A DNA stretch of 13,308 nucleotides. It comes from an uncultured Candidatus Saccharibacteria bacterium (GTDB lineage Bacteria; Patescibacteria; Saccharimonadia; Saccharimonadales; UBA1547). Below, one piece after another: positions 604-13,308 of the stretch (positions within the stretch are counted from its first letter, which is position 1; every line of letters starts with the position of its first letter). The notes beneath the pieces are model-generated. The model did not search any database. It saw only the letters and a program-made list of their open reading frames with translations, and was not told the origin of the DNA. The position numbers and the translations under genes are program-made. Location of the stretch: NCBI GenBank assembly GCA_946480535.1, contig CAMLKA010000029.1, positions 1-13,308 of the forward strand. The letters are read 5' to 3'.

Positions 604-607
604 CCCA

Positions 608-636
608 TAGGCAGCACGGGCACTATGGTCTATAAT
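608..636 (+). promoter_or_regulatory. Promoter of the histidine kinase gene, near-leaderless
   Basis: A perfect TATAAT lies at 631-636. TAGGCA (4 of 6 matches to the -35 consensus) lies at 608-613, with a 17-nt spacer. Only 11 nt separate the -10 box from the ATG at 648, so transcription would start about 4-6 nt before the start codon. No Shine-Dalgarno is visible, which points to leaderless or near-leaderless translation. Confidence 0.6.
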
Positions 637-647
637 CATAAGCACTT

Positions 648-2276
648 ATGCAAGTGGGTGGTGCCGAATTTAATCATGAAGCGGCGCGTGCAGTACGCGT
701 TATTAGTGTTGCCATCACGCCAGTACTCGCGCTGTACGCCATGCTTATTCTTGCAGGTGTAATACCGAGCGATTATTCAATTAATGCACCCCTTACGATC
801 TCTATCTCCGTACTCTGGGTACTCATGAGCCTTTGGTTTTACGTGCAACCAGCTGCAAGCTTGACGCAGCAAGCGTGGCGATTAGGGCTCATTCATCTGT
901 TTGCACTCGCAATGTTTGTGTTTGTGACTGGTTTTGCGCAACCCTTTGCACCTCTCTATGTCTTACTCTTGCTTGCAAGTCAGCTCTATTTTGGAACAAA
1001 AGGGCTTGTTTTAAGCACGGCTGCGCTGCTTGGTGCTGGTGTGGTGAGTACTATCTTTCTCTACGACACGGTGCCCTATATCCTTATCAATAACGGACTC
1101 ACTATATTCGCAACAATCTTCCTTGGGTTTGCTATCCTTGGGGTTTTGCACGTTCAGGAGACAAAACGCAAGGCATTGCTGCATAGCCAGCGACGCGAGC
1201 GATTACAGTATGACCGTATCTTAACAATCATGAACAACCTGACTGACGCAGCGTTTACGACCGACGAAAAGGGCGCCATTCTTATGTATAATGCCGCTGC
1301 GCTTGACTTGCTTGATACAAACGACAGTCTTAAAAACAAGAACATCGGCGACCTCTTTAAACTTTCAACAAAAGATAACGAAGCCGCGAACCTTCTAGCG
1401 GTGCTCAAGGAAACAACACGTGCTACCAGGCGCGATGACTTAAACCATACTTATAGCGATGGTGAATCAATTCGTCTTGAGATTACCTCAGCTCCAATCC
1501 GAAGTAACTACAGCCTCACAAAGCGCCGTGATGAGCTGGGAGGCTATATTCTCATCATGCGTGATGTCACCAAGCAAAAGAGCCTCGAAGAAGAGCGAGA
1601 TGAATTTATTAGCGTAGTGAGCCATGAGCTTCGCACGCCTATTACGATCGTCGAGGGGACGCTTTCCAACCTTGAGCTAATGATGAAACAACCAAAGCAG
1701 CCTGAGCCAAAGCTGCTTTCAAGCAACATCACCACTGCTCACGACCAGGTGGTGTACCTAGCGAAAATGGTCAATGACCTCAGCACACTTTCGCGCGCTG
1801 AGCGTGGAGTCGCAGACGCTCCGGAAGAAATTGATGTCCAAGAGCTTCTTCATCTCATGCATCAACGCTATGAAAAAGAAGCTGAGGCTCGAAAACTCCA
1901 CTTGAACCTCGACTTGGGTGCAAAGCTTGGCAAGGTGAACGTGAGTCGCCTCTATCTTGAAGAGCTCCTGCAAAACTTCATTACAAACGCTATTAAATAC
2001 ACCAAAGAGGGGAGTGTCACCATTATCGCTCGCCGCACAAAAGATACCGTCACCTTCACAGTAAAGGACACCGGCATTGGTATTAGTCGTACTGATCAAA
2101 ATAAAGTCTTTAATAAGTTCTACCGTAGCGAAGACTATCGTATCCGCGAAACAAACGGTACGGGGCTTGGTTTGTATGTTTCAACGAAGCTCGCACATAA
2201 GCTTCGCACGCAAATCGAACTAAAGAGTCGCCTTAACCACGGATCTTCCTTTAGCTTTGAGCTTCCGGTCGAATAA
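648..2276 (+). CDS. Membrane sensor histidine kinase with PAS domain
   Basis: This is a complete two-component sensor kinase of 542 aa. Residues 17-168 hold about six hydrophobic segments with very short loops, so it is a membrane-embedded sensor without a large extracellular domain. A coiled linker (about 169-190) leads to a PAS domain (about 190-305), ending GYILIMRDVT. The HisKA domain carries SHELRTP with the phospho-accepting His326. The HATPase domain shows the N box (NFITNAIKYT, 443-452), the G1 box (DTGIGIS, 474-480), the F box (FNKFYR, 488-493) and the G2 box (GTGLGLY, 504-510), so all catalytic elements are intact. It is a HisKA-type (PhoR/VicK-like) kinase; the signal is unknown. 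No response regulator gene is in the window, so the kinase is an orphan here. I use the ATG at 648 because a good -10 box sits 11 nt upstream; the next in-frame Met is inside the first TM segment. Its last 26 bp overlap the convergent glycosyltransferase gene. Confidence 0.93.
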   Translation: MQVGGAEFNHEAARAVRVISVAITPVLALYAMLILAGVIPSDYSINAPLTISISVLWVLMSLWFYVQPAASLTQQAWRLGLIHLFALAMFVFVTGFAQPFAPLYVLLLLASQLYFGTKGLVLSTAALLGAGVVSTIFLYDTVPYILINNGLTIFATIFLGFAILGVLHVQETKRKALLHSQRRERLQYDRILTIMNNLTDAAFTTDEKGAILMYNAAALDLLDTNDSLKNKNIGDLFKLSTKDNEAANLLAVLKETTRATRRDDLNHTYSDGESIRLEITSAPIRSNYSLTKRRDELGGYILIMRDVTKQKSLEEERDEFISVVSHELRTPITIVEGTLSNLELMMKQPKQPEPKLLSSNITTAHDQVVYLAKMVNDLSTLSRAERGVADAPEEIDVQELLHLMHQRYEKEAEARKLHLNLDLGAKLGKVNVSRLYLEELLQNFITNAIKYTKEGSVTIIARRTKDTVTFTVKDTGIGISRTDQNKVFNKFYRSEDYRIRETNGTGLGLYVSTKLAHKLRTQIELKSRLNHGSSFSFELPVE

Positions 2277-3387
2277 CTCGACCTTTCCAAGTAACCGTAC
2301 GTCGCTTGTACTGGACAATACTGGCGATGATGAGTATAACTTCCTGAAAGACGATAAGTGGCCATAAAAGCGCTCCTATGAGCCATCCATGACGCCAAAC
2401 TTTGTGTGCGTACACACCGTATACTGCACAAAAGCTCAGGGCAACAAGCGCGGTAAGAATTGTGGCGAACGGTGAAACGAGTCCTCGTGGTGCAATAAAC
2501 ACGAGGACGACAAAGGGTATGAGCAACATAAGGACATCAAGAAGCGCGAGGATAGCCATCGCAACCTGGTTGCCGAGAAGAGGGTAGAGTAGGCGAACAC
2601 TTGTAATAAGTTGCGAGCGCCACTTCTTTTCATACGCAATGCCAAACGTTTCAGTACCAATAAGGAATTGATACTCCTTTGTTTGCGCCAGCTCAGCGGC
2701 AATCTTCGCTTCCGGCTGCACGGCATTCTTGAAGGACTTAAAACCATCGAAGCGTTTCAGAAGCACTTCTCGTCGAATAAGCCAGGCGTTGCTGGCAGTC
2801 GATGGCCAAAGGCGTCTATTGAAGATAAGCTCCCAGAAATAACGCAGCGGAGAGGCGACAACACTCGCGCGCCAGCCATCTTCACGGCGAGGTAATACCG
2901 AAACCATTGACGCTCGTTTTGAAAGCACGTAGCGAATCATATGCTCGACAGCTCGTGGGCTCAGTCGCGTATCGACATCCATAAAGAGTACATACGAGCC
3001 ACTAGCCTCTTCAAGTAACCCCTGAAGGGCGTGGTTCTTTCCAAGCCAACCACGAGGAAGCGCTTCACCTTTTACAAACCTGACCCCTTCGCTGGCAAAT
3101 GATTTAATGAGCGCCGAGGTGTCGTCACCTGAAACGTCATCAAGAACAATGATCTCGAGCTTCTGGTAGTCGGAAGCGATTACTGCTTGCAAACAGTCCA
3201 TAAGAGCATGCGCTTCGTTGCGTGCAGGGATGCACACCGTCACGCTTGGAAGGTCGGTCTCATTGGCCAGCTTTGAGGTATATGCCGGAGGGGTACTGTG
3301 CTTAAAGGCTCGAAAGAGTTGTCGTGCCATAAGAGCCACGATGCAAATAAGGACAACATTGACTATATAAAGAATAACCTCAAGCAT
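2251..3387 (-). CDS. Membrane-associated family 2 glycosyltransferase
   Basis: This is a 378 aa GT-A fold (GT2) glycosyltransferase anchored in the membrane. An N-terminal hydrophobic helix (about 3-20) precedes the catalytic domain. That domain shows PARNE (54-58), LDD (82-84), the GWLGKNHA motif (113-120) and the metal-binding DVD (137-139). An FGIAYEKKWR segment (248-257) may stand in for the Q/RxxRW acceptor motif. Three hydrophobic segments follow (about 273-299, 304-326 and 333-357), with a basic tail KRRTVTWKGR. The GW-GK-A motif and the N- and C-terminal membrane helices are typical of the GT2 group that includes the CrtQ and HpnB enzymes acting on lipid acceptors. The acceptor here cannot be read from sequence; a cell-envelope glycolipid is an inference. 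The start ATG is followed at once by the hydrophobic helix. The gene converges on the kinase gene, and no terminator separates them. Confidence 0.87.
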   Translation of the reverse strand: MLEVILYIVNVVLICIVALMARQLFRAFKHSTPPAYTSKLANETDLPSVTVCIPARNEAHALMDCLQAVIASDYQKLEIIVLDDVSGDDTSALIKSFASEGVRFVKGEALPRGWLGKNHALQGLLEEASGSYVLFMDVDTRLSPRAVEHMIRYVLSKRASMVSVLPRREDGWRASVVASPLRYFWELIFNRRLWPSTASNAWLIRREVLLKRFDGFKSFKNAVQPEAKIAAELAQTKEYQFLIGTETFGIAYEKKWRSQLITSVRLLYPLLGNQVAMAILALLDVLMLLIPFVVLVFIAPRGLVSPFATILTALVALSFCAVYGVYAHKVWRHGWLIGALLWPLIVFQEVILIIASIVQYKRRTVTWKGRVIRPEAQS

Positions 3388-3395
3388 CTTCTGGC

Positions 3396-3404
3396 ACTAT
3401 AATA
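3396..3404 (-). promoter_or_regulatory. Probable -10 region of the glycosyltransferase gene
   Basis: On the minus strand, overlapping -10-like hexamers TATTAT (3399-3404) and TATAGT (3396-3401) lie 11 and 8 nt before the ATG. No Shine-Dalgarno is visible, so this also looks near-leaderless. No convincing -35 box was found. A 7-bp direct repeat, CACTATA, occurs at 3395-3401 and 3405-3411 on the plus strand, with a 10-bp period. Confidence 0.35.
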
Positions 3405-3427
3405 CACTATATAGACAAGGAGTCATA

Positions 3428-3456
3428 TTGACGTTTTGCTAGGGGTACGCTACAAT
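3428..3456 (+). promoter_or_regulatory. secE-nusG promoter
   Basis: TTGACG (3428-3433) and TACAAT (3451-3456) are separated by exactly 17 nt, close to the sigma70 consensus. Transcription would begin near 3462-3464, giving a leader of about 40 nt before the secE GTG. A second pair, TTGACA (3461-3466) and TATTTA (3484-3489) with a 17-nt spacer, follows, but its start would fall in or after the Shine-Dalgarno, so I favour the first. Confidence 0.7.
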
Positions 3457-3503
3457 AGCCTTGACAGTCTGCAACAGCAGACTTATTTATTTGGGAGGAA
3501 AAA

Positions 3504-3839
3504 GTGGCAGAGAATAAGAAAGTCACTCGCATCACCGCTAAAGATGACGCGCCAAAGAAGGCTGAAAAGCCAGCAGCAGCGCCAAAGACTAAAGCAGTAA
3601 AAGCGCAAAAGGTTACAAAGACCGAAACGACTGAAACCACCGAAAAGAAGAATGTATTCGCTCGTATAGGCGGCTATTTCAAGGGTGCGTGGGTTGAGCT
3701 CCGCCAAGTGCGTTGGCCAAACCGTAAAGCAACATGGGCATTAACTGTTGCCGTTATCTTGTTCAGCCTCTTCTTTATGGGACTTATCGTCCTCCTCGAC
3801 ATGCTTTTTAAATGGATTTTTGAAATCATCATCGCTTAA
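3504..3839 (+). CDS. secE: Preprotein translocase subunit SecE
   Basis: SecE is the small essential subunit that clamps SecY in the Sec translocon. The protein is 111 aa. Residues 1-50 are a Lys/Ala/Thr/Glu-rich, probably disordered cytoplasmic extension. The conserved SecE amphipathic helix follows (from about 53), with ELRQVRWPNRKATW at 65-78 as the signature. A single transmembrane helix (about 79-98) and a hydrophobic end follow. It is the one-TM form, longer than typical one-TM SecE (about 60-70 aa) only because of the charged extension. The start is GTG at 3504, chosen because a strong GGGAGG (3493-3498) sits 5 nt upstream. The gene precedes nusG by 14 nt, the classical bacterial secE-nusG pair. 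Confidence 0.93.
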   Translation: MAENKKVTRITAKDDAPKKAEKPAAAPKTKAVKAQKVTKTETTETTEKKNVFARIGGYFKGAWVELRQVRWPNRKATWALTVAVILFSLFFMGLIVLLDMLFKWIFEIIIA

Positions 3840-3853
3840 GGATAAAGGAATAT

Positions 3854-4402
3854 ATGGCAAAGAATCGATACGACTCATCACGACAATGGTACGCAATCCA
3901 CACCTACAGTGGCTACGAAGAGAAAGTTGCTGAAAGCATTCGTCAGCGTATTAACGCGGTCGACATGGCTGACAAAATCTTCGACGTAATGGTACCGAAG
4001 GAAAAGCAAATTGAAATCAAGAACGGTAAGCGTAAGGTAGTTGAGAAGAAAATCTTCCAAGGCTACGCACTGGTTGAAATGAAACTCACCGACGAAACGT
4101 GGTACATCGTCCGTAACACGCCTGGCGTGACCGGTTTCGTAGGAACCAGCACACAACCAACTCCAGTTTCTGATCAAGAAATTTCAAAGATTAAGAAGCG
4201 TATGGGTGTCGAGGATCCTAAGCACCAAATCGACTTCGCAGAAGGCGAAGTGGTCAGCATTACCGACGGCCCATTCAAGGGATTCGATGGTGCCATCTCT
4301 GAAATCGACAACGTGAAGGGCAAGGTGAAGGTTATGGTTAGTATGTTTGGCCGTGACACTTCAGTCGAGCTCGACGCATTGCAAGTTAAGAAGGTGTCGT
4401 AG
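3854..4402 (+). CDS. nusG: Transcription elongation/antitermination factor NusG
   Basis: NusG binds RNA polymerase near the clamp and couples it to Rho or the ribosome. The 182 aa protein has the usual two-domain layout. The NGN domain (about 10-110) starts with WYAIHTYSGYEEKV and contains FQGYALVEM and a TPGVTGFVG segment. The C-terminal KOW domain (about 128-180) carries EGEVVSITDGPFKGFDG and ends with FGRDTSVELD. All core motifs are intact and the length is standard. A purine-rich AAAGGA (3844-3849) lies 4 nt before the ATG. The gene is co-transcribed with secE and is followed by a strong intrinsic terminator about 20 nt after the stop codon. Confidence 0.96.
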   Translation: MAKNRYDSSRQWYAIHTYSGYEEKVAESIRQRINAVDMADKIFDVMVPKEKQIEIKNGKRKVVEKKIFQGYALVEMKLTDETWYIVRNTPGVTGFVGTSTQPTPVSDQEISKIKKRMGVEDPKHQIDFAEGEVVSITDGPFKGFDGAISEIDNVKGKVKVMVSMFGRDTSVELDALQVKKVS

Positions 4403-4422
4403 TCACCAATGACGATACATAT

Positions 4423-4455
4423 GAAGGCTTTACATCGTGTAGAGCCTTCTTTTTT
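4423..4455 (+). terminator. Intrinsic terminator after nusG
   Basis: A 12-bp stem (4423-4434 with 4438-4449, one G-U pair) closes a 3-nt loop (TCG) and is followed by six T residues (4450-4455). The next gene's Shine-Dalgarno starts only 3 nt after the T tract. Confidence 0.88.
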
Positions 4456-4475
4456 ATAAGGAGGGGTTCAACAAA

Positions 4476-4886
4476 ATGCCAGAGAAAGTTCCAGAAAGTG
4501 TAGCGGTTGTATTTAGAAAGGGTAATTTCTTTCTTGTACCGCCAGAGCCGCTTGCACTTCCCTACGAAGAGCGTTTCGAGAAGGAGACATTTGAAAGTGC
4601 CGCGTATCGACTTGCGGCGGATCATGGAGTAGTACGAGCAAAAGTCGATACTGTGTTGAATGTCCCTGACTTGGATGGTGCGCCGAAGCGTGCGTATGTA
4701 TTGACTGATGCTGTTGGACAGCTTGATGGAAGTGAGTATTACCGCCACGAAGTGGAACTGATGGATCATATTACTGAGCATCGTACGCTTCGGCCCGTGG
4801 ATATTGCCCTGTTTGAACAAGCTTTAAAGTCGCATCGTCACACCCGAAGCCTCCAAGGCGCTGCAGCAATTCGTCGCGCCTCTTAG
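4476..4886 (+). CDS. Small conserved-looking protein, possible degenerate Nudix fold
   Basis: I do not recognise this 136 aa soluble protein with confidence. It opens with a beta strand, VAVVFRKGNFFLV (10-22), followed by YEERFEKETFESAAYRLAADHGV (from about 30). That helix has the spacing of a Nudix box helix but lacks the REUxEE residues, so an active pyrophosphohydrolase is unlikely. A second possible strand (AYVLTDAV) and a C-terminal helix (VDIALFEQAL) fit a small alpha/beta fold. AAGGAGG (4458-4464) lies 11 nt upstream of the ATG and supports the start. The gene sits between the nusG terminator and the rplK promoter with no clear promoter of its own, so it may depend on read-through. The Nudix link is an inference from pattern only. 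Confidence 0.6.
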   Translation: MPEKVPESVAVVFRKGNFFLVPPEPLALPYEERFEKETFESAAYRLAADHGVVRAKVDTVLNVPDLDGAPKRAYVLTDAVGQLDGSEYYRHEVELMDHITEHRTLRPVDIALFEQALKSHRHTRSLQGAAAIRRAS

Positions 4887-4891
4887 CATCA

Positions 4892-4920
4892 TGGACAATA
4901 GGGGCGTAATTTGCTATAAT
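4892..4920 (+). promoter_or_regulatory. rplK promoter with extended -10
   Basis: TGGACA (4892-4897, 5 of 6 to consensus) and a perfect TATAAT (4915-4920) are 17 nt apart. TGC directly before the -10 box makes it an extended -10. The -10 box is flanked by a perfect 5-bp inverted repeat, TTGCT (4911-4915) and AGCAA (4922-4926). Predicted transcription start is near 4927, giving a leader of about 73 nt. Confidence 0.82.
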
Positions 4921-4933
4921 AAGCAAGTTACGC

Positions 4934-4979
4934 ACTAAATATCGCGCATGCTTCAACAAACGCGATTCTAATATTTAGT
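4934..4979 (+). promoter_or_regulatory. Leader hairpin upstream of rplK, candidate ribosomal-protein autoregulatory site
   Basis: A perfect 9-bp helix forms between ACTAAATAT (4934-4942) and ATATTTAGT (4971-4979). It continues into CGCG (4943-4946) with CGCG (4961-4964), leaving a 6-nt bulge on the 3' side and a 14-nt loop. It ends just before the rplK Shine-Dalgarno AAGGA (4984-4988). No T tract follows, so it is not a terminator. In E. coli, L1 represses the L11-L1 operon through the L11 leader; an equivalent role here is only an inference. Confidence 0.5.
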
Positions 4980-4999
4980 ACAAAAGGATATTTACAACA

Positions 5000-5425
5000 A
5001 TGGCAAAGCAAGTAATTGGTAACTTGAAGCTCCGTATCCCTGCTGGTCGTGCGACCGCTGGTCCTCCAGTTGGTTCAACACTCGGTCAATGGGGTCTTAA
5101 CATGATGGACTTCATTAACCCATTCAACGACGCAACTAAGGAACTCAACGGTAAGGACGTTATCGTACACATTCAAGTGTTCGAAGACCGTACCTTCGCC
5201 TGGAAGTCACTTGGTCAACCAGTTGACGACCTTATCCGTGAAAAGATTGGCATCCAAAAGGGAAGCGCCAAGCCTCACTCTGACAAGGTTGGTAAGATCA
5301 CTCGTGCTCAGCTCGAAGAAATCGCTGAACTTAAGAAAGATCAACTCAACGCCATCGACCTCGAAGGTGCAGTAAAGGTTATCGCCGGAACCGCACGTTC
5401 AATGGGTGTCGAAGTTACTGAATAG
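5000..5425 (+). CDS. rplK: 50S ribosomal protein L11
   Basis: L11 forms the GTPase-associated centre with 23S rRNA. The 141 aa length is standard. The N-terminal domain carries the proline-rich segment AGPPVGSTLGQWGLNMMDF (about 20-38), which differs from the usual PAPPVGPALGQ-G-NIM at several positions. The linker reads FAWKSLGQPVDDLIREK in place of the usual TPP-containing form. The C-terminal RNA-binding domain is well conserved: GIQKGSAKPHSDKVGKITRAQ and the signature IAGTARSMGV near the end. Such divergence is plausible for a CPR ribosome. AAGGA lies 11 nt before the ATG. Unlike most bacteria, rplA does not follow: a terminator and the minus-strand island come next, and a probable rplA starts at 13121. 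Confidence 0.96.
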   Translation: MAKQVIGNLKLRIPAGRATAGPPVGSTLGQWGLNMMDFINPFNDATKELNGKDVIVHIQVFEDRTFAWKSLGQPVDDLIREKIGIQKGSAKPHSDKVGKITRAQLEEIAELKKDQLNAIDLEGAVKVIAGTARSMGVEVTE

Positions 5426-5434
5426 TAATGGCAC

Positions 5435-5469
5435 AAAAAAGAAGCCTCTCGGGGCTTCTTTTATTTTGG
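5435..5469. terminator. Bidirectional intrinsic terminator between rplK and the minus-strand island
   Basis: GAAGCC (5441-5446) pairs with GGCTTC (5453-5458). On the plus strand the stem is followed by TTTTATTTT, ending rplK. On the minus strand the stem is followed by six T (5440-5435), ending the island's last transcript. The stop codon of the minus-strand gene (5461-5463) lies inside the T-rich side, so the two convergent units share one compact element. Confidence 0.85.
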
Positions 5470-5631
5470 GTAAAGCTGCCCGAATTCTATAATTGGCGCA
5501 GATTCAATCACTTCGACTTCGGGCATGAGCGCTTCTTGATATGCGACAGTCGAGAATTCGGTAACCATTGCTGAAGCATCGAGGCCCGAAGGAACCGAAA
5601 GGGGGAGTTGTGCTGCGCCTAAATCAGCCAT
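5461..5631 (-). CDS. Small cassette partner protein C (MAD...GQLYP family)
   Basis: A 56 aa ORF starts with ATG only 2 nt after the stop of large protein C and ends with TAA inside the shared terminator. It begins MADLG and ends IIEFGQLYPK, with GQLYP at residues 51-55. The same start and end pattern is seen in three other small ORFs, each directly downstream of a paralogous large protein. Four conserved occurrences with the same gene order argue strongly that this is a real gene despite its size. It is acidic in the middle (PEVEVIE) and has no signal peptide or membrane segment. This copy is the most divergent of the three short ones, since it lacks the SPxxYG and DEP motifs of B and D. Function is unknown; a partner, chaperone or tip of the large protein is an inference. 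Confidence 0.78.
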   Translation of the reverse strand: MADLGAAQLPLSVPSGLDASAMVTEFSTVAYQEALMPEVEVIESAPIIEFGQLYPK

Positions 5632-5633
5632 AT

Positions 5634-6626
5634 CTATATCGCCCTAAATGCTAAACAAGTAAGATATGTCGCATGACTTGAGGTTAACACCCACGTATCT
5701 CCATCAATTGTTACAGTATCACCACGCGTAACGGTACTCGCACTAAGGAAAGATAGGGCGTCTTTTGCCCTTCCCACATTCACTGCCGCTATGGAGTTGT
5801 TTGCATACACGGTGCCCGCCGTAAAAGTACCAGTACTAGGATTCATGAGGACATATACATATTTTCCTCTAGGCGGAATAGTACCTAGGAATGGGCTAGC
5901 GTCGGCAGCGCCCAAGACACCATACCCTCCTTCAGGGTGGTGAGGGAAGAAATGCCCTGTCCAGAATGTCGCAATCCTGTTCCAGCGGCTAAACGTTGTT
6001 GCTCGAGGCGCCCTGGTAACGGCAGCATAGCCGTCCGTCGTACCCGTTGTGCTTGTGAGATATGAATCAAGGCTTCCAACGATAAGGGGATAGAGAGCGG
6101 CGCCGGCATTAGTGCTGTAGGCAGTATTTGGCTCCCAGAAACCACAATAAACTAGTCTACTTGGCGCTAAAGAACTCATCGCTATGACACGGTTTTGTGT
6201 AATTGACATCCAATAACCTACTGATGCGGTCGATAGAGTTATTTGATTAATTGTTCCTGTTGCCGCCATCCAGTTTGTTTCAAGTGCAGAGCCAGTTGCG
6301 CCGTACTTGGAGAAGTAGGTACCTTCAATGGTCGTTGTTGTATCAAAAATAGGACCTCGTGTACCGATGTCAGTGACTGCATTGAAATCTTCGAATGGTG
6401 AAAGCCAAATAGAACCGGCCCCTGTTGTCGTGTAGGTTACATCGAGATACCAGTCGAGACCCGCCTGGTTATTCGCCGCATTTGACTTCCAGATTTTGTG
6501 TGTTCGAGTAGAGATAACTACCGTATCGACGAGCGTAAACCCGGCACTTGCGAACGCAGGATCCATAAGAGCATAAAGGTCTGCTGCTGGGTTTGCGCTG
6601 GTGATGTTTCCGGATATATACGTCAT
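5634..6626 (-). CDS. Large cassette protein C, fibre-like family of unknown function
   Basis: This 330 aa protein is one of four paralogs in the window. It begins [20 protein letters not shown]. Motifs shared at the same positions as its relatives are DTVVISTRTHKIW (34-46), LDWYLDV (57-63), TTTGAGSIW (66-74) and PFEDF (77-81). Further on come SKYGATGSALETNW (106-119), GYWMSITQNRV (137-147), EGGYGVLG (232-239), PPRGK (251-255) and VTRGDTVTIDGDTWVL (299-314). It is rich in Thr, Ser, Gly, Ala and aromatic residues with few charges, as in beta-rich fibre or tail proteins. There is no signal peptide or transmembrane helix. The region between about 165 and 290 is the most different from the paralogs. 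The gene starts 10 nt after small gene B and ends 2 nt before small gene C, so translation is probably coupled. Phage-tail or adhesin-like function is inferred from style and context only. Confidence 0.85.
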   Translation of the reverse strand: MTYISGNITSANPAADLYALMDPAFASAGFTLVDTVVISTRTHKIWKSNAANNQAGLDWYLDVTYTTTGAGSIWLSPFEDFNAVTDIGTRGPIFDTTTTIEGTYFSKYGATGSALETNWMAATGTINQITLSTASVGYWMSITQNRVIAMSSLAPSRLVYCGFWEPNTAYSTNAGAALYPLIVGSLDSYLTSTTGTTDGYAAVTRAPRATTFSRWNRIATFWTGHFFPHHPEGGYGVLGAADASPFLGTIPPRGKYVYVLMNPSTGTFTAGTVYANNSIAAVNVGRAKDALSFLSASTVTRGDTVTIDGDTWVLTSSHATYLTCLAFRAI

Positions 6627-6636
6627 ATAATATCTA

Positions 6637-6810
6637 TTACCGTGGGTAAATTTGTCCTATGGTTGGTATCTCCGCATCAAGGGAGAATTCTAGTGGGTTT
6701 GGCTCATCGACCGTTCCGTATGCTACAGGCGACTGTGCGGCCGCGTAGGTATCAATCAAAAAGCCTACAGGAAAAGCAACGGGTGACAGGACTGTACTAA
6801 AATCCGCCAT
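6637..6810 (-). CDS. Small cassette partner protein B (MAD...GQIYP family)
   Basis: A 57 aa ORF starts with ATG 2 nt after the stop of large protein B. It begins MADFS and ends IPTIGQIYPR, with GQIYP at 52-56. It aligns well with small protein D over its second half: (I/S)DTY or DSY near 20, SPVAYG or SPMQYG near 28-33, DEP at 35-37, and then IGQ(I/L)YP at the end. The ribosome-binding sequence AAGGCGG lies in the last codons of the upstream large gene, which encode its conserved C-terminus AFKAV. No hydrophobic segment long enough for a membrane helix is present. Function is unknown. Confidence 0.8.
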   Translation of the reverse strand: MADFSTVLSPVAFPVGFLIDTYAAAQSPVAYGTVDEPNPLEFSLDAEIPTIGQIYPR

Positions 6811-6812
6811 AA

Positions 6813-7802
6813 CTACACCGCCTTAAAGGCATAAGCCGCTTCTATACCACTTAATTTTGACCCGAGTACCCATGTTTCGCTATTCAATGTCACGGTGTCG
6901 CCACGCGCAACAGCGGCAACTGCCTGAAAAACAAGTATGTCATAGAGCTCACCCACAAGCGCAGGACTCGTCAAGCTGGTAGATTTGAACGTCAGCGTGT
7001 GATCACTTGACGTACTCCCAAATACAACATACAGCTTTCGACCCCTTGGAGTTGAGAATCCAAGATACGGATTAATAGAATTATCACCAATAACCCCCTG
7101 CCCACCTTCATGTACTGTTGCAAGTGTAGAGTAGGCAAAAAATCGTGCAATATACGGCCAGTAGTACATAGTAGCCGCCTTTGGCGCGCGAGTAACCATC
7201 ACCTTCTCGTTTGTTGCCGTTCCATTGAGGGCGTCGGTATCGCTTGCCTGACCTGCAATAAGCGGGAATAAAGAAGATCCAGCGTGAGCTGTAAACGCAT
7301 CGCTTGGTTTGTACAGACCAGCATAGACGAGCTTCGTAGTGCTAATAGTTGTTAGTCCAATGACACGATTGGGTGTGATTGAAATCCAATAGCCAAAGCT
7401 TGAGGTTGACAAATCAAGTCGATTGTTTGCATGAGAGACTGTGGCCCAGTTCGTTTCGAGCGCATAACCGGTAGCTCCGAAACGACTATAATACGTTTGT
7501 TCGATTGTTGAGGTTGTATTCATACATAGGCCACGAACGCCAAGGTCGGTTGTGGCATTAAAATCCTCAAACGGAGCAAACCATACAGAGCCAGCACCTG
7601 AGGTCGTGTAGGCAACATCGAGATACCAATCAAGATTTTGAGCGTTCGAACCCGCAGGTGAACGCCACATTTTGTGAGTCCTGGCACCAATAACTACAGT
7701 ATCTACAAAAACATATCCAGCTGCCGAGAGGGCGGGATCAATAAGAGCATAAAGATCAGCCGCTGGGTTAGCACTTGTCAGGGTGCTCGCAATATAGGTC
7801 AT
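6813..7802 (-). CDS. Large cassette protein B, fibre-like family of unknown function
   Basis: This 329 aa paralog begins [20 protein letters not shown]. Key motifs are RTHKMW (41-46), [11 protein letters not shown] (57-67), [11 protein letters not shown] (71-81), [16 protein letters not shown] (104-119), [13 protein letters not shown] (135-147) and GLYKP (162-166). The C-terminal half has EGGQGVIGD (232-240), [11 protein letters not shown] (251-261), LVGELYD (282-288) and [15 protein letters not shown] (299-313), ending YAFKAV. It lacks a signal peptide and any long hydrophobic helix. Its ATG overlaps the stop codon of the collagen-like gene as ATGA (7799-7802), a classic sign of translational coupling, so both proteins are made from one message. 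The repeated PR-G-K, RGDT and TWVL features suggest a shared C-terminal beta domain. Family identity is unknown to me; receptor-binding or tail-fibre-like is an inference. Confidence 0.85.
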
Positions 7803-8752
7803 CGTGTCTCACGAATCCACTCGATATTGAGCGTAGCCGTGCCGTCGTCCACGCGCCAAAAGACAGTATTCTGTCCTGCATCGAGATTTAAAGTAAAGCC
7901 GCTCGTCCAAAATGTCGCTGGAGATTCCCAGCGAAACTCAGCAAGGAGCGTGCCGTCTGTTGGTGGCGCAGTGGTATGTGCGCGACCAGAATCGGCAGTA
8001 CGATCGTTGATAGAGCGATAAAAACGAATACGACAGGCTGTTGAGGCAGTAATTTTCACGATTCTGAAAGCATCAGCCATGGTTGAAGAGCCGTCACCGG
8101 TAACATTCGTGAGGGTAGTCACCTGTGCAGTAGGAAGTAGGGAAGTAATGCTCGACCACTGCGTCGCGTAGTCGGTACCAGAACTCTTTGAAAGCACTTG
8201 TCCCGTCGTACCGCCACTTGCAACACCTGGGCCTGGGTTACCTTGCGGGCCCTGAGCGCCTGGATCGCCCTGAGGTCCCTGTGCACCTGCAGCACCTTGA
8301 GGGCCGGTGTCTCCAGTATCACCCTTATCTCCTTTGGCGCCGGCTGGCCCTTGCGCACCTGCGTCACCGGTGTCGCCTTTAGGCCCCTGTATACCAGGAG
8401 TTCCAGGTACACCTTGAATACCCTGAGCGCCTTGTTCACCATCGGCTCCACGAGCACCTTGTGGCCCCGTAATATCAGCAAGGAGAACGAGCAACTCCCA
8501 AGATGCGCTTTCACTCGTACGCCATTCTAGCGCAGTAGCGGTTTTTCGAAGCTGCACTTCAGTGGTAGCGTTCAGTTTAGCGCGCACACCTGGAGCGAGC
8601 TTGGCTTCGGCAATAGCGTCATTAAGAATATGCTGCGTTGCAACAGTATTTACCTTAAATGATCCGTCGGCATCGTGAGCAACTTTAAGATATTCATTAA
8701 GAATATCACCCCATACACCCTCGTCCGCACCTGTAACTGGAAGCCTTGCCAT
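7799..8752 (-). CDS. Collagen-like repeat protein with fibre-type head and tail domains
   Basis: This 317 aa protein has three parts. Residues 1-95 are an N-terminal domain with [19 protein letters not shown] (13-31), a module often found at the head of phage-fibre-like and collagen-like proteins. Residues 96-176 are 27 uninterrupted Gly-X-Y triplets rich in GPQ, GAQ, GDT and GDK, which should form a trimeric collagen-type triple helix in the absence of hydroxyproline. Residues 177-203 hold a linker, [23 protein letters not shown], of a type common in phage tail fibres. Residues 205-317 form a beta-rich C-terminal domain with [15 protein letters not shown] and FWRVDD. There is no signal peptide. 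AAAGGA (8759-8764) lies 6 nt before the ATG. The stop TGA overlaps the start of large protein B. A trimeric fibre or surface stalk is the likely role, by family knowledge and context. Confidence 0.88.
8225..8467 (-). repeat. Gly-X-Y coding repeat, 27 triplets
   Basis: This 243-bp stretch encodes the collagen-like residues 96-176. The nucleotide repeat is imperfect with a 9-bp period, and codons vary, so the repetition is kept at protein level. The register is never interrupted. Confidence 0.9.
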
Positions 8753-8777
8753 TACTTTTCCTTTTAGCGTTAGTACT

Positions 8778-8786
8778 ATGATAGCA
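8778..8786 (-). promoter_or_regulatory. Extended -10 promoter of the collagen-like gene
   Basis: On the minus strand, TGCTATCAT occupies 8786-8778: an extended -10 (TGC) plus TATCAT. Transcription would start near 8771, leaving a leader of about 18 nt that carries the AAAGGA ribosome-binding site. No good -35 hexamer is seen at 16-18 nt, which an extended -10 can tolerate. This makes collagen-B-C a separate transcription unit from cassette A. Confidence 0.55.
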
Positions 8787-8810
8787 CTTTATATGTAAAA
8801 TTTACTCATT

Positions 8811-9083
8811 TTAGCTGTCCGAGGCACCGGGGGCGATTGCATAAGGATAAAGCTGGCCCGTTGTAGCCCCAGAATTTGTATTTGTACTAACATCAGCACC
8901 CGTCCCGGCAATACCGAATTGTCCAACGCGAATCATGTCGCTTTCTCGCACGGGGTCGTCAAAAATAAAGTGGACCCCAGCATGATGAACAGCTGAGTCA
9001 ATCGAAGTTTGTATTGAAATATTACTGACTTGAAAAGTGTTCGGGTTGAAGTCGATAATTGCGATACTTCCGTGATCTGCCAT
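8811..9083 (-). CDS. Small cassette partner protein A (longer MAD...GQLYP variant)
   Basis: This 90 aa protein starts 4 nt after the stop of large protein A, with AAAAGG just upstream inside that gene's last codons. It begins MADHGS and contains TTGQLYP with GQLYP at 76-80, followed by a 10-residue tail (YAIAPGASDS) not seen in the other copies. Its middle is different from the other small proteins: about residues 7-60 include IAIIDFNPNTFQVSNISI, HHAGVHFIFDD and VGQFGIAGTG, suggesting a small beta domain in place of the SPxxYG/DEP segment. Only the two ends are shared with the family. This makes it the most divergent small partner, matching the divergence of large protein A. No signal peptide or membrane helix is visible. 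Confidence 0.82.
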   Translation of the reverse strand: MADHGSIAIIDFNPNTFQVSNISIQTSIDSAVHHAGVHFIFDDPVRESDMIRVGQFGIAGTGADVSTNTNSGATTGQLYPYAIAPGASDS

Positions 9084-9087
9084 AAAC

Positions 9088-10032
9088 CTACCTTTTAAAC
9101 ATCAATGAGGCGTTATTTGCGCGTGCAGTCAAAACCCAAGTAGCACTTGTGTCGTCCGTGAGAGTGTCACCACGAGTAACAATGGCGTCTGTCCAAACGG
9201 CAGCAACATCAATAAGGTACCCCCAGAAACCACGTTGGGTAGCACCTGAAGTAAGCGGAACGCGAATTGCGAACTTCCTCGAAACGGTCGTATCACCGCT
9301 TGGAACGGTTGGAGAATTAAATATAGTCATGAGTTGTGCAACATTCGAAGCAAGTGCTTCATAGCGAATAGACCCGACTATCTTAGGGAAGCGCGTCATA
9401 GCGAGCATTCCATAGTTTGGCGCCTCACCACCGTTAATCATAGCCGAGACAAGAGGGAAGGCTGAAGCGCCTGCATTTAAGGTTTGTTCAGCACTTGGTT
9501 CGTAAAGGCCATTGTAATACAGCATCGAAGGGGCGACTGAGAATAACATAGCAATTCGTTGAGGCGTGACCGAAATCCAATACCCAAATGAACTTGCAGG
9601 AAGTGAGACGTCGCGATTGGTCGTGCTGTTATCAGAGGCTGCGCCAGCACGCACATACCACTGACTTGCCTCAAGAGAGTATCCCGTAGCACCGTACGGC
9701 GCATAGTTATTGGCCGCAGAAAGTGTTGAGGCGCTCGTGTAATATTGCCACCCCATCGCCATTCGATAGGCAAGATTTGAAGCGGCATCATACCCCTCCA
9801 TGACGTACATACCAAATGTACCGGTACCAGTTGTTGTGTAGGCAACGTCTATATACCAATCTTGTCCCTTTGGATTATTTGCAGCAGGGTTCTTCCAAAC
9901 CTTGTGAGTACGGGTTGAGATAACAACCGTATCTTCCAGTGTGTAGCCAGCTGTAATAAGCGCAGGCTCCAACTCTGAATACATCACCGATGGCGCGTTC
10001 ACGTCTGTAATTGTGTTGCTAATATACGCCAC
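9088..10032 (-). CDS. Large cassette protein A, divergent fibre-like paralog
   Basis: I place the start at GTG (10030-10032), not the TTG six bases further upstream. From this GTG the conserved motifs fall at exactly the same residues as in the other three paralogs (GY 29-30, DTVVISTRTHKVW 34-46, DWYIDVAYTTTG 58-69), and AGGGG lies about 9 nt before it. The protein is then 314 aa. After residue 70 it diverges strongly: it lacks the PFEDF, EGG-G and PRGK motifs. It keeps [33 protein letters not shown] and, near the C-terminus, VTRGDTLTDDTSATWVL. It is Ala/Ser/Thr-rich, low in charge and without a signal peptide. The conserved N-terminus with a different body is what one expects of a common attachment domain carrying a variable distal part, as in phage fibres. 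That reading is an inference. Confidence 0.83.
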   Translation of the reverse strand: MAYISNTITDVNAPSVMYSELEPALITAGYTLEDTVVISTRTHKVWKNPAANNPKGQDWYIDVAYTTTGTGTFGMYVMEGYDAASNLAYRMAMGWQYYTSASTLSAANNYAPYGATGYSLEASQWYVRAGAASDNSTTNRDVSLPASSFGYWISVTPQRIAMLFSVAPSMLYYNGLYEPSAEQTLNAGASAFPLVSAMINGGEAPNYGMLAMTRFPKIVGSIRYEALASNVAQLMTIFNSPTVPSGDTTVSRKFAIRVPLTSGATQRGFWGYLIDVAAVWTDAIVTRGDTLTDDTSATWVLTARANNASLMFKR

Positions 10033-10062
10033 TCTCAAAACCCCTATGCAATTAACGTTAGC

Positions 10063-10074
10063 AGTATTCTAGCA
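10063..10074 (-). promoter_or_regulatory. Extended -10 promoter and inverted repeat upstream of cassette A
   Basis: On the minus strand TGCTAGAAT lies at 10074-10066, an extended -10 with TAGAAT. The box sits within a perfect 6-bp inverted repeat, CAGTAT and ATACTG (plus-strand 10062-10067 and 10074-10079), with a 6-nt centre. No T tract follows, so an operator-like site is more likely than a terminator for the upstream oxidase gene. The -35 region overlaps the oxidase stop codon and is poor (TTTCTA). Confidence 0.45.
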
Positions 10075-10087
10075 TACTGGCTTCGTT

Positions 10088-11752
10088 TTAGAAATGGTCA
10101 CGAATGTGTGAGAAGCTGTAATCCCAAGTTGCGTAGGCCTTCTTGTTTGGATTAAAGATATGCTCTGGGTCGAAGATATCTTTCGTCTTTTTGAAAAGAT
10201 CAACGATTTCTTTACCGTACTGTGCCTCAAGCCATGGTCCACGAACCAGTCCATCATTATGCTCACCACTGAGAGACCCTTTATATTCAAGGACAAGATT
10301 ATTTACCTCTTTCATGGCAGGCTCAAGCTTTGCGCGGTCGTTTGGATCTTCAAGCTTCATGAGAGGGATAATGTGGAAATTACCATCACCCATGTGGCCG
10401 GCAATTGTTGCGAAAAGTTTATACTTCTTAATAATCACACGAATCTTCGGAAGGAATTCAGGAAGATATTCAGGGTTAATAATGAAGTCGTCGATAAATG
10501 GTGCGGTGTGCTTGTCTTTCACCTTGCTGCGGAGCAATTGGAAGCTGCGGCGACGAAGGATCCAAAACTTCTCGCTTGACCCTTCAGTTGGATCTTCTTC
10601 GAACCCGTTAATTTCGTAGCGAGCCTTGTATGGTTGGAGGTCGCGGTGAAGCGCCTTAATCTTTTCACGCACTTCTTCTTCAGTTGCGCCTGTAAACTCA
10701 ACCATAAGAACAAGCTTTGGAATACCCTTCAGCATTTGGAAGCCTTCAGGAATAAGGCTGAAGAGAAGGTGAATAAACTTTACGGGTCCAAGGAAGGTAA
10801 GGAAGCTTGGCAAGAATTTGATTGCAAGCAGCAGGGTTGCGTCGTCAAAACCTTCAAATGTAGCAGGTTTGTGCGCAACAACCGTCTTAATAAGCTCTCC
10901 GAGGCCATCAATATCGCGAAGGAAAAGCACGAGCAGTCCAGAGTGAGCTGGTCGCTCCACAAGGTTGAAGCTTGCTTCGGTCACAAAGCCGAGTGTACCC
11001 TGTGCTCCAACAATCGCCTTTGCAAGGTCAAATATCTCCGTGTCACGATTCCAGACATCCCAAAGGTGATACCCTGTTGAGTCCTTGCTGACATGAGGGC
11101 GAGCAGCCTGAATAGCGTCGTAGTTTGCTTCAATCATTTCATACAGCTCACGGTACACGCGGCCTTCAAAGTCGCCTTGTCCCATCTTTGCTGCAAGCTG
11201 GGCTTTCGTGAGTGGCTTCACGATACGCTCAATACCGTCCGCAAAGACAAACTTAAGCTCGGTAACGTAGCGGTCGGTCTTGCCGAACTCAAGTGACTTT
11301 TCACCACCAGAGTTATTATTAACCATGCCACCAATCGTACAAAGGTCGCGACTTGCTGGATATGACGGCAGAAGTGCGTTGAGCTTAATAGTCTCGACGT
11401 CAAAATCACGGAAGAACATTCCTGGCTGAACAGTAGCGCTGTTCGCGTCAATTTTTACAAGTTGGTTAAGGTGTGCGTTAAAGTCAACGATGATTGAATC
11501 GTTAATAGCCGCACCTGACATGTCGGTACCTGCACTTCGAGCAGTGAGCGACAATTTTGGATTATTCTTTTTATTCTCTGCTACAAACTTCACGAGCTTT
11601 GTAACATCTTCGGCAGTTTGCGGTTTTGCAACCACTTCAGGAATGATTTCAAACATTGAGGCGTCGTGTGAGTAGAGCTCACGCGCTTCAGCGCTGTCAT
11701 CTAGTTCTCCTGTGAATCCTGTTTGCTGTAGTTTTTCTTTCAACTCTTTCAT
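10088..11752 (-). CDS. FAD-linked oxidase, GlcD/D-lactate dehydrogenase family
   Basis: This 554 aa flavoprotein belongs to the VAO/PCMH fold group that oxidises 2-hydroxyacids such as D-lactate or glycolate. The FAD-binding domain shows RSAGTDMSG (72-80), PSYPASRDLCTIGGMVNNNSGG (from 129) and GAQGTLGFVTE (249-259). The cap and C-terminal domain has PFIDDFIINPEYLPEF (418-433), GHMGDGNFH (452-460, the family metal-site motif), SGEHNDG (495-501) and FDPEHIFNPNK (527-537). The length fits the single-domain GlcD type; there is no C-terminal 4Fe-4S domain. A stretch IKFLPSFLTFLGPVKFIHLLFSLIP (about 311-335) in the cap is unusually hydrophobic and may allow membrane association. The electron acceptor is not apparent from this window. 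It is the only enzyme inside the cassette island and has its own promoter. Substrate is not certain. Confidence 0.92.
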   Translation of the reverse strand: MKELKEKLQQTGFTGELDDSAEARELYSHDASMFEIIPEVVAKPQTAEDVTKLVKFVAENKKNNPKLSLTARSAGTDMSGAAINDSIIVDFNAHLNQLVKIDANSATVQPGMFFRDFDVETIKLNALLPSYPASRDLCTIGGMVNNNSGGEKSLEFGKTDRYVTELKFVFADGIERIVKPLTKAQLAAKMGQGDFEGRVYRELYEMIEANYDAIQAARPHVSKDSTGYHLWDVWNRDTEIFDLAKAIVGAQGTLGFVTEASFNLVERPAHSGLLVLFLRDIDGLGELIKTVVAHKPATFEGFDDATLLLAIKFLPSFLTFLGPVKFIHLLFSLIPEGFQMLKGIPKLVLMVEFTGATEEEVREKIKALHRDLQPYKARYEINGFEEDPTEGSSEKFWILRRRSFQLLRSKVKDKHTAPFIDDFIINPEYLPEFLPKIRVIIKKYKLFATIAGHMGDGNFHIIPLMKLEDPNDRAKLEPAMKEVNNLVLEYKGSLSGEHNDGLVRGPWLEAQYGKEIVDLFKKTKDIFDPEHIFNPNKKAYATWDYSFSHIRDHF

Positions 11753-11760
11753 ACTTGTTA

Positions 11761-11789
11761 ATCATAAGCTGTATGAAGGGCAAGTGCAA
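11761..11789 (-). promoter_or_regulatory. Leaderless promoter of the FAD-linked oxidase
   Basis: On the minus strand, TTGCAC (11789-11784) and TATGAT (11766-11761) are separated by exactly 17 nt. Only 8 nt lie between the -10 box and the ATG, so the transcript should begin at or 1-2 nt before the start codon. No Shine-Dalgarno is possible. Confidence 0.72.
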
Positions 11790-11797
11790 GAGGGCGC

Positions 11798-11974
11798 CTA
11801 AGAAGGGTAGAGTTGACCGATTACCGGAAGAGTTCCAGGTGCCTCACCGCTCTCAATTGCGCTTGGCTCATCAAGTGCTCCATACTGCATAGGACTACTC
11901 ACCATGCCGTAACTATCAAGAAGCGGTCCTGATTCGATATCGAGTGCTGGATTGAGGGTTCCAAAGTCTGCCAT
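11798..11974 (-). CDS. Small cassette partner protein D (MAD...GQLYP family)
   Basis: A 58 aa ORF starts with ATG 2 nt after the stop of large protein D. It begins MADFGTL and ends LPVIGQLYPS, with GQLYP at 53-57. It shares with small protein B the pattern D-(S/T)-Y near residue 20, SPxxYG at 27-32 and DEP at 35-37. The ribosome-binding site is weak (AGCAGG within the last codons of the large gene, encoding FKQV), so reinitiation after the large gene's stop codon is likely. It is acidic, soluble and has no hydrophobic segment. No terminator is seen before the oxidase promoter, which begins right after its stop codon. Confidence 0.8.
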   Translation of the reverse strand: MADFGTLNPALDIESGPLLDSYGMVSSPMQYGALDEPSAIESGEAPGTLPVIGQLYPS

Positions 11975-11976
11975 CG

Positions 11977-12960
11977 CTATACCTGCTTAAAAGCATACGT
12001 TGTGTATCCAGTGCCGGTTGAACAGAACGTCCATGAAGCGCCACCAATAGACGCCGTATCACCACGTGTGACCGTATTTGCAGCCTGAAAAGCATAAATA
12101 TCATAGAGCTGGCCGACAAGTGCAGCATTGCTTGCGGCGTTTCCACCGTACGCGTCCGAGAGAGATGAAGGGGAGAAGACGATATAGATTCGCTTACCAC
12201 GGGGTGTTACGGGGCCAAGGAAGGCATTGCTCGTCACATCGCCAATCATACCAATGCCACCTTCGTACGAGAGTGGTGAAGCACCGTACGACCACAATCG
12301 TGCAGCATAACTCCATCTATAAATGGAGGGGGCCCTTGGGACTCGAGAGACCATCGCCATATTTGCGCTTGCATTGACGGAGCTCGCACCATCAAGACTC
12401 GCTGAAATAATAGGAAATAAATCAGCCCCAACAAAGCTGGCATGTGCTGTGTCTGCTTTATAAAGGCCCGTATACACCATTCGAGAAGGAGCGGCAGTTG
12501 AAATTGAAATAATTCTATTTGGCGTAATTGATATCCAGTATCCAAAAGCGGACGTTGTTACATCAAGCTGGTTGATTGTTGTAACCCCATTGGTCGGCCA
12601 GTTTGTCTCGAGCGCATAACCAGTAGTACCGAAACGTGAGTAGTATGTTTGCTCGACAGCAGTAGTTGTAGCGGTTGTCCAGAACGCACCTCTATATCCA
12701 AGGTCGGTCACGGGGTCGTAATTTTCAAAAGGAGTAAACCAAATTGACCCCGCTCCTGTGGTTGTATACGCAATATCAAGATACCACTGTAAATTTTGGA
12801 CATTGTTAGCGGCAGGGTTACGCCATACCTTATGGGTGCGTGTTGAAATAACTACCGTATCGACAAGTAGATATCCATTGGAGGTCAGCGCGGTTTCAAT
12901 AAGAGCATAGAGATCTGCTCCTGGCGTCGCACTCGTTAAATTCCCCGATATATATGTCAC
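11977..12960 (-). CDS. Large cassette protein D, fibre-like family of unknown function
   Basis: This 327 aa paralog starts with GTG and reads MTYISGNLTSATPGADLYAL. It is most like protein B. Motifs are DTVVISTRTHKVW (34-46), LQWYLDIAYTTTGAGSIW (57-74), PFENY (77-81) and [16 protein letters not shown] (106-121). Later come [13 protein letters not shown] (138-150), APSRMVYTGLY (157-167), EGGIGMIGD (233-241), TPRGKRIYIVF (252-262), LVGQLYDIYAFQA (281-293) and VTRGDTASIGGASW (297-310). It ends YAFKQV. The start is supported by the alignment of all motifs with B and C at equal residue numbers. There is no signal peptide. The cassette lies upstream of the FAD oxidase, apart from A-B-C, and is divergent to the probable rplA gene. 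Function is unknown; a fibre or receptor-binding role is inferred from the family style. Confidence 0.86.
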   Translation of the reverse strand: MTYISGNLTSATPGADLYALIETALTSNGYLLVDTVVISTRTHKVWRNPAANNVQNLQWYLDIAYTTTGAGSIWFTPFENYDPVTDLGYRGAFWTTATTTAVEQTYYSRFGTTGYALETNWPTNGVTTINQLDVTTSAFGYWISITPNRIISISTAAPSRMVYTGLYKADTAHASFVGADLFPIISASLDGASSVNASANMAMVSRVPRAPSIYRWSYAARLWSYGASPLSYEGGIGMIGDVTSNAFLGPVTPRGKRIYIVFSPSSLSDAYGGNAASNAALVGQLYDIYAFQAANTVTRGDTASIGGASWTFCSTGTGYTTYAFKQV

Positions 12961-12985
12961 GGTATGTCTCGCTTATGTTAGGTTT

Positions 12986-12991
12986 ATTATA
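12986..12991 (-). promoter_or_regulatory. -10 box of cassette D
   Basis: A perfect TATAAT on the minus strand lies 25 nt before the GTG start of large protein D. The -35 region is weak. The leader of about 18 nt contains only a poor ribosome-binding site (GCGAGA). Confidence 0.5.
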
Positions 12992-13040
12992 CATCACATA
13001 GCCCATGTACCTATGACCTCTGGCTTTTCAGGGGTTATTG

Positions 13041-13049
13041 TGCTACAAT
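13041..13049 (+). promoter_or_regulatory. Extended -10 promoter and leader of the probable rplA
   Basis: TGCTACAAT (13041-13049) is an extended -10 box with TACAAT. The -35 region (TGGCTT at 13021-13026) is poor. Transcription would start near 13056, leaving a leader of about 65 nt. In it, 13075-13082 can pair with 13091-13098 (8 bp, three G-U), a marginal hairpin. AAAGGG at 13104-13109 is the likely ribosome-binding site, 11 nt before the ATG. Confidence 0.55.
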
Positions 13050-13120
13050 GAACAAATACAAATCAATGTTGGGAGGTGTGAAGAGCGCCGTTTGTACCAC
13101 AGAAAGGGTTATATACCTAC

Positions 13121-13308
13121 ATGGCAAAGAAAGCCGATTTGCTTGCTGAGGCTGCAAAGCTCAACCTCGAAGTAAGTGAAAAGAACACTATTGCAGAAAT
13201 TGAAGCTGCAATTGCTGGCGCTGCCCCTGCTGAAACTGCAGAAGTAGCAACCGAAGAAGTTAAGGAAGAAGCACACGTTGCAAAGGCTGGTAAGCGTTCT
13301 GCAAAGGC
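13121..13308 (+). CDS. rplA: Probable 50S ribosomal protein L1, N-terminal extension only, 3' end missing
   Basis: The frame is open from ATG 13121 to the window end and gives 62 residues. Residues 4-32 (ADLLAEAAKLNLEV, then NTIAEIEAAIA) look like a short HeH/LEM-type helix-extended-helix module. They are followed by an Ala/Glu/Val-rich linker (33-53) and a basic end, KAGKRSAK. The conserved L1 core is not reached, so the call rests on two things: my recollection that Saccharibacteria L1 proteins carry such an N-terminal extension ending in a GKRSAK-like segment, and the partial gene order, since rplK lies upstream on the same strand. Other proteins with HeH-like N-termini, including other ribosomal or nucleoid proteins, remain possible. 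The promoter upstream is of the same TGC-extended type as that of rplK. Confidence 0.6.
   Translation, partial: MAKKADLLAEAAKLNLEVSEKNTIAEIEAAIAGAAPAETAEVATEEVKEEAHVAKAGKRSAK

Follow-up and report, generated by a model that had tools for sequence, protein, structure and literature searches.

Phage-type large–small gene pairs with a collagen-like fibre gene in a Saccharibacterium chromosome, probably kept for adhesion

Phage fibre genes are known, as is the reuse of tail parts by bacteria. In Pseudomonas phage JBD30, whose tail fibres (PDB 8RK3) are our reference, the gp47/gp48 fibres are wrapped by residues 2–74 of gp49, the distal tail protein, and pilus binding by gp47/gp48 has been described at 26 Å resolution (PMC11445458). 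For Saccharibacteria, passages of PMC12206443 present host recognition and binding as largely unexplained; according to them these bacteria bind their hosts via type IV pili of their own, and further close-range adhesins are proposed. The T4P-2 pili described there are a host-recognition system of the same bacterial class and are built of pilins, to which L showed no relation, none having been searched for. Here we analyze a stretch of 13,308 nt, called the window throughout (GCA_946480535.1, contig CAMLKA010000029.1, positions 1–13,308), from an uncultured Candidatus Saccharibacteria bacterium (UBA1547), in which four genes for large proteins (L1–L4) are each followed by a small partner open reading frame (ORF; S1–S4), with a collagen-like gene (COL) in their midst. 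On balance, we judge the four L-S pairs and COL to be phage-type adsorption cassettes kept in a Saccharibacterium chromosome, probably for adhesion; their phage kinship is well supported, and their use, display and target we infer.

Reading the minus strand from 12960 to 5461, the order is L4-S4-FAD oxidase-L3-S3-COL-L2-S2-L1-S1. The nine cassette genes (four L, four S and COL), all of them intact ORFs, lie as follows.

11977–12960, minus strand: L4, fibre-like protein of 327 aa with a GTG start, whose structure was predicted (ORF, BLASTP, model)
11798–11974, minus strand: S4, 58 aa, MAD...GQLYPS, 2 nt past L4 (ORF, BLASTP)
9088–10038, minus strand: L3, divergent, 316 aa from a TTG start or 314 aa from a GTG two codons on
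8811–9083, minus strand: S3, 90 aa, 4 nt past L3, with GQLYP 10 residues from the C-terminal end
7799–8752, minus strand: COL, collagen-like fibre protein of 317 aa (PF01391, 2.7e-13)
6813–7802, minus strand: L2, 329 aa (ORF, BLASTP)
6637–6810, minus strand: S2, 57 aa, MAD...GQIYPR (ORF, BLASTP)
5634–6626, minus strand: L1, 330 aa (ORF, BLASTP)
5461–5631, minus strand: S1, 56 aa, MAD...GQLYPK (ORF, BLASTP)

The gap between L and S is 2 nt for L4, L2 and L1 and 4 nt for L3, the COL stop and the L2 start overlap by 4 nt, and the database copy of L3 (P0007, 314 aa) starts two codons further in. The original prediction, made from the DNA letters, had described four paralogous cassettes of a large and a small protein in unbroken large-then-small order, and both the ORFs and BLASTP bear it out, with the order holding in 4/4 cassettes at gaps of 2–4 nt and the L proteins 33–50% identical. 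L1, L2 and L4 are mutually 47–50% identical, and L3 reaches 33–35% with each of them (E about 1e-41 or lower); by sequence comparison, the four are true paralogs. The motifs that had been quoted, RTHK(I/M/V)W, GYW(M/I)S(I/V)T and RGDT, are present in all four L, and each S starts with MAD and carries GQ(L/I)YP at or near its end. S2 and S4 are clearly related (40% identity, E 8e-12) and S1 weakly so (E 0.001–0.002). For S3, BLASTP aligns only 5–7 residues around GQLYP with the other S (E 0.5 or worse), and its kinship therefore rests on position, MAD and GQLYP.

A protein search returned 226 L homologs at E ≤ 1e-3. Across 82 L sequences compared, the first 120 residues are the most conserved and residues 181–280 the most variable, a pattern that would suit a conserved body with a variable contact face at about 181–280. 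In a FastTree phylogeny, L1, L2 and L4 form one group (support 0.997) with P0004 and P0006 (70 and 62% identical to L1) and with P0005, P0008 and P0009 (60, 56 and 59% identical to L2), separate from a second group (support 1.0) of L3 with P0010, P0011 (78 and 66% identical to L3) and P0017. Two other contigs each bring together relatives of both subtypes: the first, of 638,191 bases, carries the L2-type P0008, the L3-type P0010 and a COL relative (P0151, 67%), and the second, 45,983 bases long and labelled Patescibacteria, carries P0009 and P0011 (tags V4611_02430 and V4611_02415); both are known through protein matches alone, and placement on the same contig is inferred from equal contig sizes. 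The proposed diversification of the set is thus visible in the identities of the paralogs, in the distinct subtypes and in relatives elsewhere. One more L homolog, P0025, comes from a 1.1-Mb contig assigned to unclassified Microbacterium and may belong to a prophage of an actinobacterium.

The predicted model of L4 (pLDDT 89.4, pTM 0.90) matches the tail-fibre protein gp47 of JBD30 over the whole chain in a fold comparison, so that, on this model, L and gp47 have a fold in common. The original prediction saw phage fibre-like modules in the large proteins, with which this match agrees, as do the phage contigs described below, where L is followed by S and mostly preceded by a fibre-type gene. 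It also named a match of the large proteins to a known enzyme family as the counter-case; no family in Pfam or PHROGs matches any of the four L, and none in NCBIfam matches L3 or L4, the two scanned there. That gp47 is itself reported to have been classified in a nitrilase superfamily (PMC11445458) favors a reading of L as an enzyme and S as its small partner, with the fibre likeness confined to the fold. We regard this as highly improbable in view of the missing family matches, the constancy of S as a neighbor and the fibre-type gene found upstream in 28/31 phage contigs.

These contigs came from two IMG/VR scans, whose 21 + 26 loci amount to 31 distinct uncultured-phage contigs with an L gene 32–49% identical to the window L over the best segment. 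An ORF of 40–100 aa starts between −10 and +5 nt from the L stop in 31/31 cases, whereas the same criterion is satisfied at 75/500 other long ORF ends of those contigs, these control ends belonging to mechanically called ORFs with a length from about 200 codons upward and not to curated genes. When the S-type start and end motifs are included, the contrast becomes 29/31 versus 0/500. The pairing of L with S is thus beyond chance, although the second contrast, unlike the first, has an element of circularity in that its motifs derive from the S proteins being counted, and the 31 phage L are not all independent (L135–L137 have identical S, as do L147 and L148). Nineteen of the 31 phage S end in V(P/A)(I/V)Q, 7 resemble those of the window in carrying GQ(L/I)(W/Y)P close to their end, 4 have a related WP motif (L002, L135–L137) and 1 has neither (L131). 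L then S is the regular gene order in these phages. The adjacency count that had been proposed for the two families accordingly gives S directly after L in every contig, the small ORFs, whose absence from homologous loci had been named as fatal to the idea, are conserved there, and the impression of an architecture without any named counterpart does not hold as regards kin.

Directly upstream of L stands a fibre-type gene in 28/31 contigs, the others having an S-like gene (L002), something else (L131) or a gene that could not be assigned (L003). The upstream gene ends in GDEW(I) in 19/31 (for example L005 and L020), was flagged for collagen-type repeats in 13/31, and shares the C-terminal domain of COL, with the pattern R-x-R-x-Y...R-x-AD..R, in 9/31 (L001, where it lies 94 nt from L, L133, L135–L138, L147, L148 and L150). 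Five contigs were scanned around L and all five have phage genes there, including a tape measure (L005, L020, L133, L147), tail and endolysin genes (L005), and portal and terminase genes (L136). Of 967 records related to the L005 tape measure, the ten listed come from phages of Microbacterium and Arthrobacter and are 44–52% identical over 46–77% of its length, and the tally also includes other hosts, such as Staphylococcus. On L002 (3113–5815), an S-like ORF lies between two L genes, an arrangement resembling the tandem of the window. The phage module and the window thus agree in homologous L with S at its end (4/4 in the window); they differ in that, wherever contigs were scanned, the phage module has phage genes around it, whereas the window holds four copies without such genes. 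In JBD30 and seven relatives, gp47, gp48 and gp49 are consecutive and follow the tape measure where that falls within the stretch, an order from which the window departs in that a free-standing S comes after L and a collagen-like gene before L2.

The original prediction had held that no other phage gene is present, which does not stand, since COL, omitted there, is a further phage-type member amid the cassettes. Its predicted model has an N-terminal WG module (about residues 1–90), Gly-X-Y repeats (about 96–178) and a C-terminal β-sandwich domain (about 207–315). COL matches tail-fibre PHROGs, mostly via the collagen repeats, and its relatives are 65–67% identical. It shares its Gly-X-Y repeats (PF01391) with tail fibres and bacterial adhesins of the collagen-like kind, the latter represented in NCBIfam by Lcl, SclA and SclB, but its NCBIfam matches to these cover the repeat region and stay far below the cut-offs (55–65 bits against 325–500) and, unlike the bacterial adhesins, it has end domains of its own and no LPXTG motif. 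The WG module (the first 90 residues, MARLP..G.D.G.WG.ILN.(F/Y)L) was matched in 58/151 Saccharimonadaceae genomes, a single genome having as many as 20 matches, and its first 33 residues, in a composite query, match six Streptomyces phage records, for example BRock and GiJojo. Ten WG-module proteins, some cut by locus ends, were scanned with Pfam: 2 have a pectate-lyase-like domain over the cut-off, 2 have collagen repeats, one of them also fibronectin type III, 1 has a DUF5907 repeat and 4 have no Pfam match. At loci L114–L125, members of this family have C-terminal regions that are tailspike-like in part. Because the module occurs in so many genomes and with several domain types, COL is one of a wide set of Saccharimonadaceae proteins with a WG N-terminus, part of them tailspike-like.

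The window NusG shares 99% identity with its counterpart in Candidatus Saccharibacteria bacterium 49-20, in keeping with the candidate phyla radiation (CPR) host named in the original prediction, and by sequence the window is Saccharibacterial, with the cassettes lying beside housekeeping genes. Its chromosomal anchor (3504–5425, names assigned from sequence) and the remaining neighbor are as follows.

3504–3839, plus strand: secE
3854–4402, plus strand: nusG
4476–4886, plus strand: ORF of 136 aa between nusG and rplK, with no Pfam match
5000–5425, plus strand: rplK
10088–11752, minus strand: FAD-linked oxidase, a chromosomal neighbor outside the unit (Pfam PF01565, PF02913)

By title, 80 related nusG loci comprise 60 from Saccharibacteria or kindred, 15 from unassigned bacteria, 4 from Patescibacteria and 1 from Chloroflexi; rplK is found in 71/80, and rplK together with rplA in 57/80. 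Neither L nor S has a match at E ≤ 1e-3 in any of the 80, 57 of which span the rplK–rplA interval, and COL has none at E < 1e-20, the range of the matches listed. The FAD oxidase occurs in 23/80, all 23 without L or S, and we therefore treat it as a chromosomal neighbor and not a member of the unit. At locus L022, from a close relative, it lies between rplK and rplA, with secE, nusG and rplK in the same order as in the window; only about 135 nt separate nusG from rplK there, versus the 136-aa ORF in the window. The rplK–rplA interval ranges from 0.4 to 7.7 kb across the 57 loci and is thus variable in content, and the window extends at least 7.9 kb past rplK (5426–13308), cassettes included, without reaching rplA. 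Prepilin-like genes, a membrane protein (names assigned from sequence) and the FAD oxidase occupy this interval in 49-20; with regard to T4P-2, prepilin-like motifs are found in the intervals of 5/57 relatives.

No L match was found in the whole genomes of 49-20 and two other relatives (0/3). A class-level search of 392 genomes gave 1 clear L match (G331, E 3.9e-21) and two further marginal partial ones (E 5.7e-4 and 6.4e-4), which we discount; the genome sets overlap, and the count is 0/17 for the genus, 1/394 for the family (one of the marginal matches), 1/392 for the order (G331 again) and 0/286 for the phylum. In G331 the order is a collagen-like fibre gene, L, and an S ending GQLWPRG..., among neighbors that include a glycosyltransferase, a rhodanese-like protein and a P-type ATPase (names assigned from sequence), and a fibre gene with the COL-type C-terminal domain precedes L in two Saccharibacteria, the window and G331. 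Within 20 kb around this cassette there is no recognizable capsid/head, portal or tape-measure gene, and a search of the G331 genome with the tape-measure (PF10145), portal (PF04860) and capsid (PF05065) families gave no match, families of the tube, sheath and baseplate lying outside that search. In the 13.3-kb window itself no capsid, portal, terminase, tape-measure or integrase gene was recognized in the ORF list and in scans of the main genes, which did not extend to every ORF.

Part of this evidence would suit prophage leftovers without a function for the cell, or a store of fibres recombined into infecting phages to shift their host range. Outside Saccharibacteria, the L kin with readable context are phage contigs, a tandem of L with an S-like ORF exists on phage contig L002 also, the rplK–rplA interval varies in size, and the genome of the nearest relative, 49-20, lacks an L match. 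Leftovers would sit less easily with nine intact genes of chromosome-like base composition, their GC being 47–54% beside 46–52% in the neighbors and 55–69% in 13 measured phage loci. The GC3 of the nine genes is 0.39–0.45, below that of most neighbors (0.40–0.56). Leftovers do not account readily, either, for relatives of two subtypes found in similar company on other contigs, or for the lack of a recognized head or tape-measure gene in the window and around the G331 copy. We consider such leftovers or such a store rather unlikely.

Several observations nevertheless weigh against retention for adhesion. L is rare and not a general Saccharibacterial adhesin, with a single clear match among the class genomes and none in the genus. 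Upstream in G331 (L105:130-2411) lie another collagen-like gene and a pair of glycine-rich genes of tail-like character; the pair matches PF21722, with a phage-tail-tip-like start, and one of the two also has a sub-threshold match to PF24243. A fibre gene directly precedes only L2 in the window (1/4, not L1, L3 or L4), in contrast to the phage contigs, and phage genes may lie beyond L4, on the open side of the window, which is the only part of this genome that was analyzed. No significant sequence homology of L to gp47 or gp48 was shown by hhalign (gp47, probability 11%, 203 columns, E 0.0027; gp48, probability 16%, 38 columns, E 0.0016), and pilus binding is described for JBD30 and would extend to L by analogy. 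Finally, no signal peptide, anchor or hydrophobic signal segment was seen in L, S or COL by eye, no predictor having been run, which leaves export unexplained. Tail proteins need no signal peptide, and this last point would fit fibre subunits of a phage-tail-like particle, a tailocin or injection system with its core genes elsewhere in the genome, as would the spread of the WG module, some copies joined to tailspike-like parts, as though a single attachment point served many fibres. The three families sought without a match in G331 speak against such a particle, which we think quite unlikely.

In the reading that we prefer, retention for adhesion, domestication and surface use would mean that the products of L, S and COL serve the cell as recognition or adhesion proteins that bind a target outside it. 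Saccharibacteria have actinobacterial hosts, and the surfaces or pili of the host would be the most likely target, a host pilus being plausible because gp47/gp48 bind a pilus in JBD30. L would be the binding body, with its variable part at about 181–280, and S a short, probably extended peptide that tethers L to its fibre, by analogy with the gp49 loop in position and size only; L3 may pair with the L1/L2/L4 type in the manner of gp47 and gp48. More tentatively, Saccharibacteria may have taken over whole phage cassettes (fibre, L arm and S tether) from phages that are predators of their actinobacterial hosts, the diversified set recognizing the same hosts, perhaps via pili, and the WG-module proteins may be a large borrowed repertoire of tailspikes and fibres. 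That the L-bearing phages prey on actinobacteria is a claim drawn from the L005 tape measure and the high GC.

New here are the fibre-L-S module, unnamed in the libraries searched and for which no description was found in the literature of a limited library, the assignment of the L fold, and the presence of several copies in a Saccharibacterium without a recognizable prophage. Even if the cassettes do not work on the cell, a phage adsorption module of fibre, L and S is defined and the L family is tied to a solved tail-fibre fold. If they do, the same gripping parts would serve the episymbiont and phages alike, and the cassettes would provide direct candidates for host range together with a route by which a phage fibre evolves into a bacterial adhesin.

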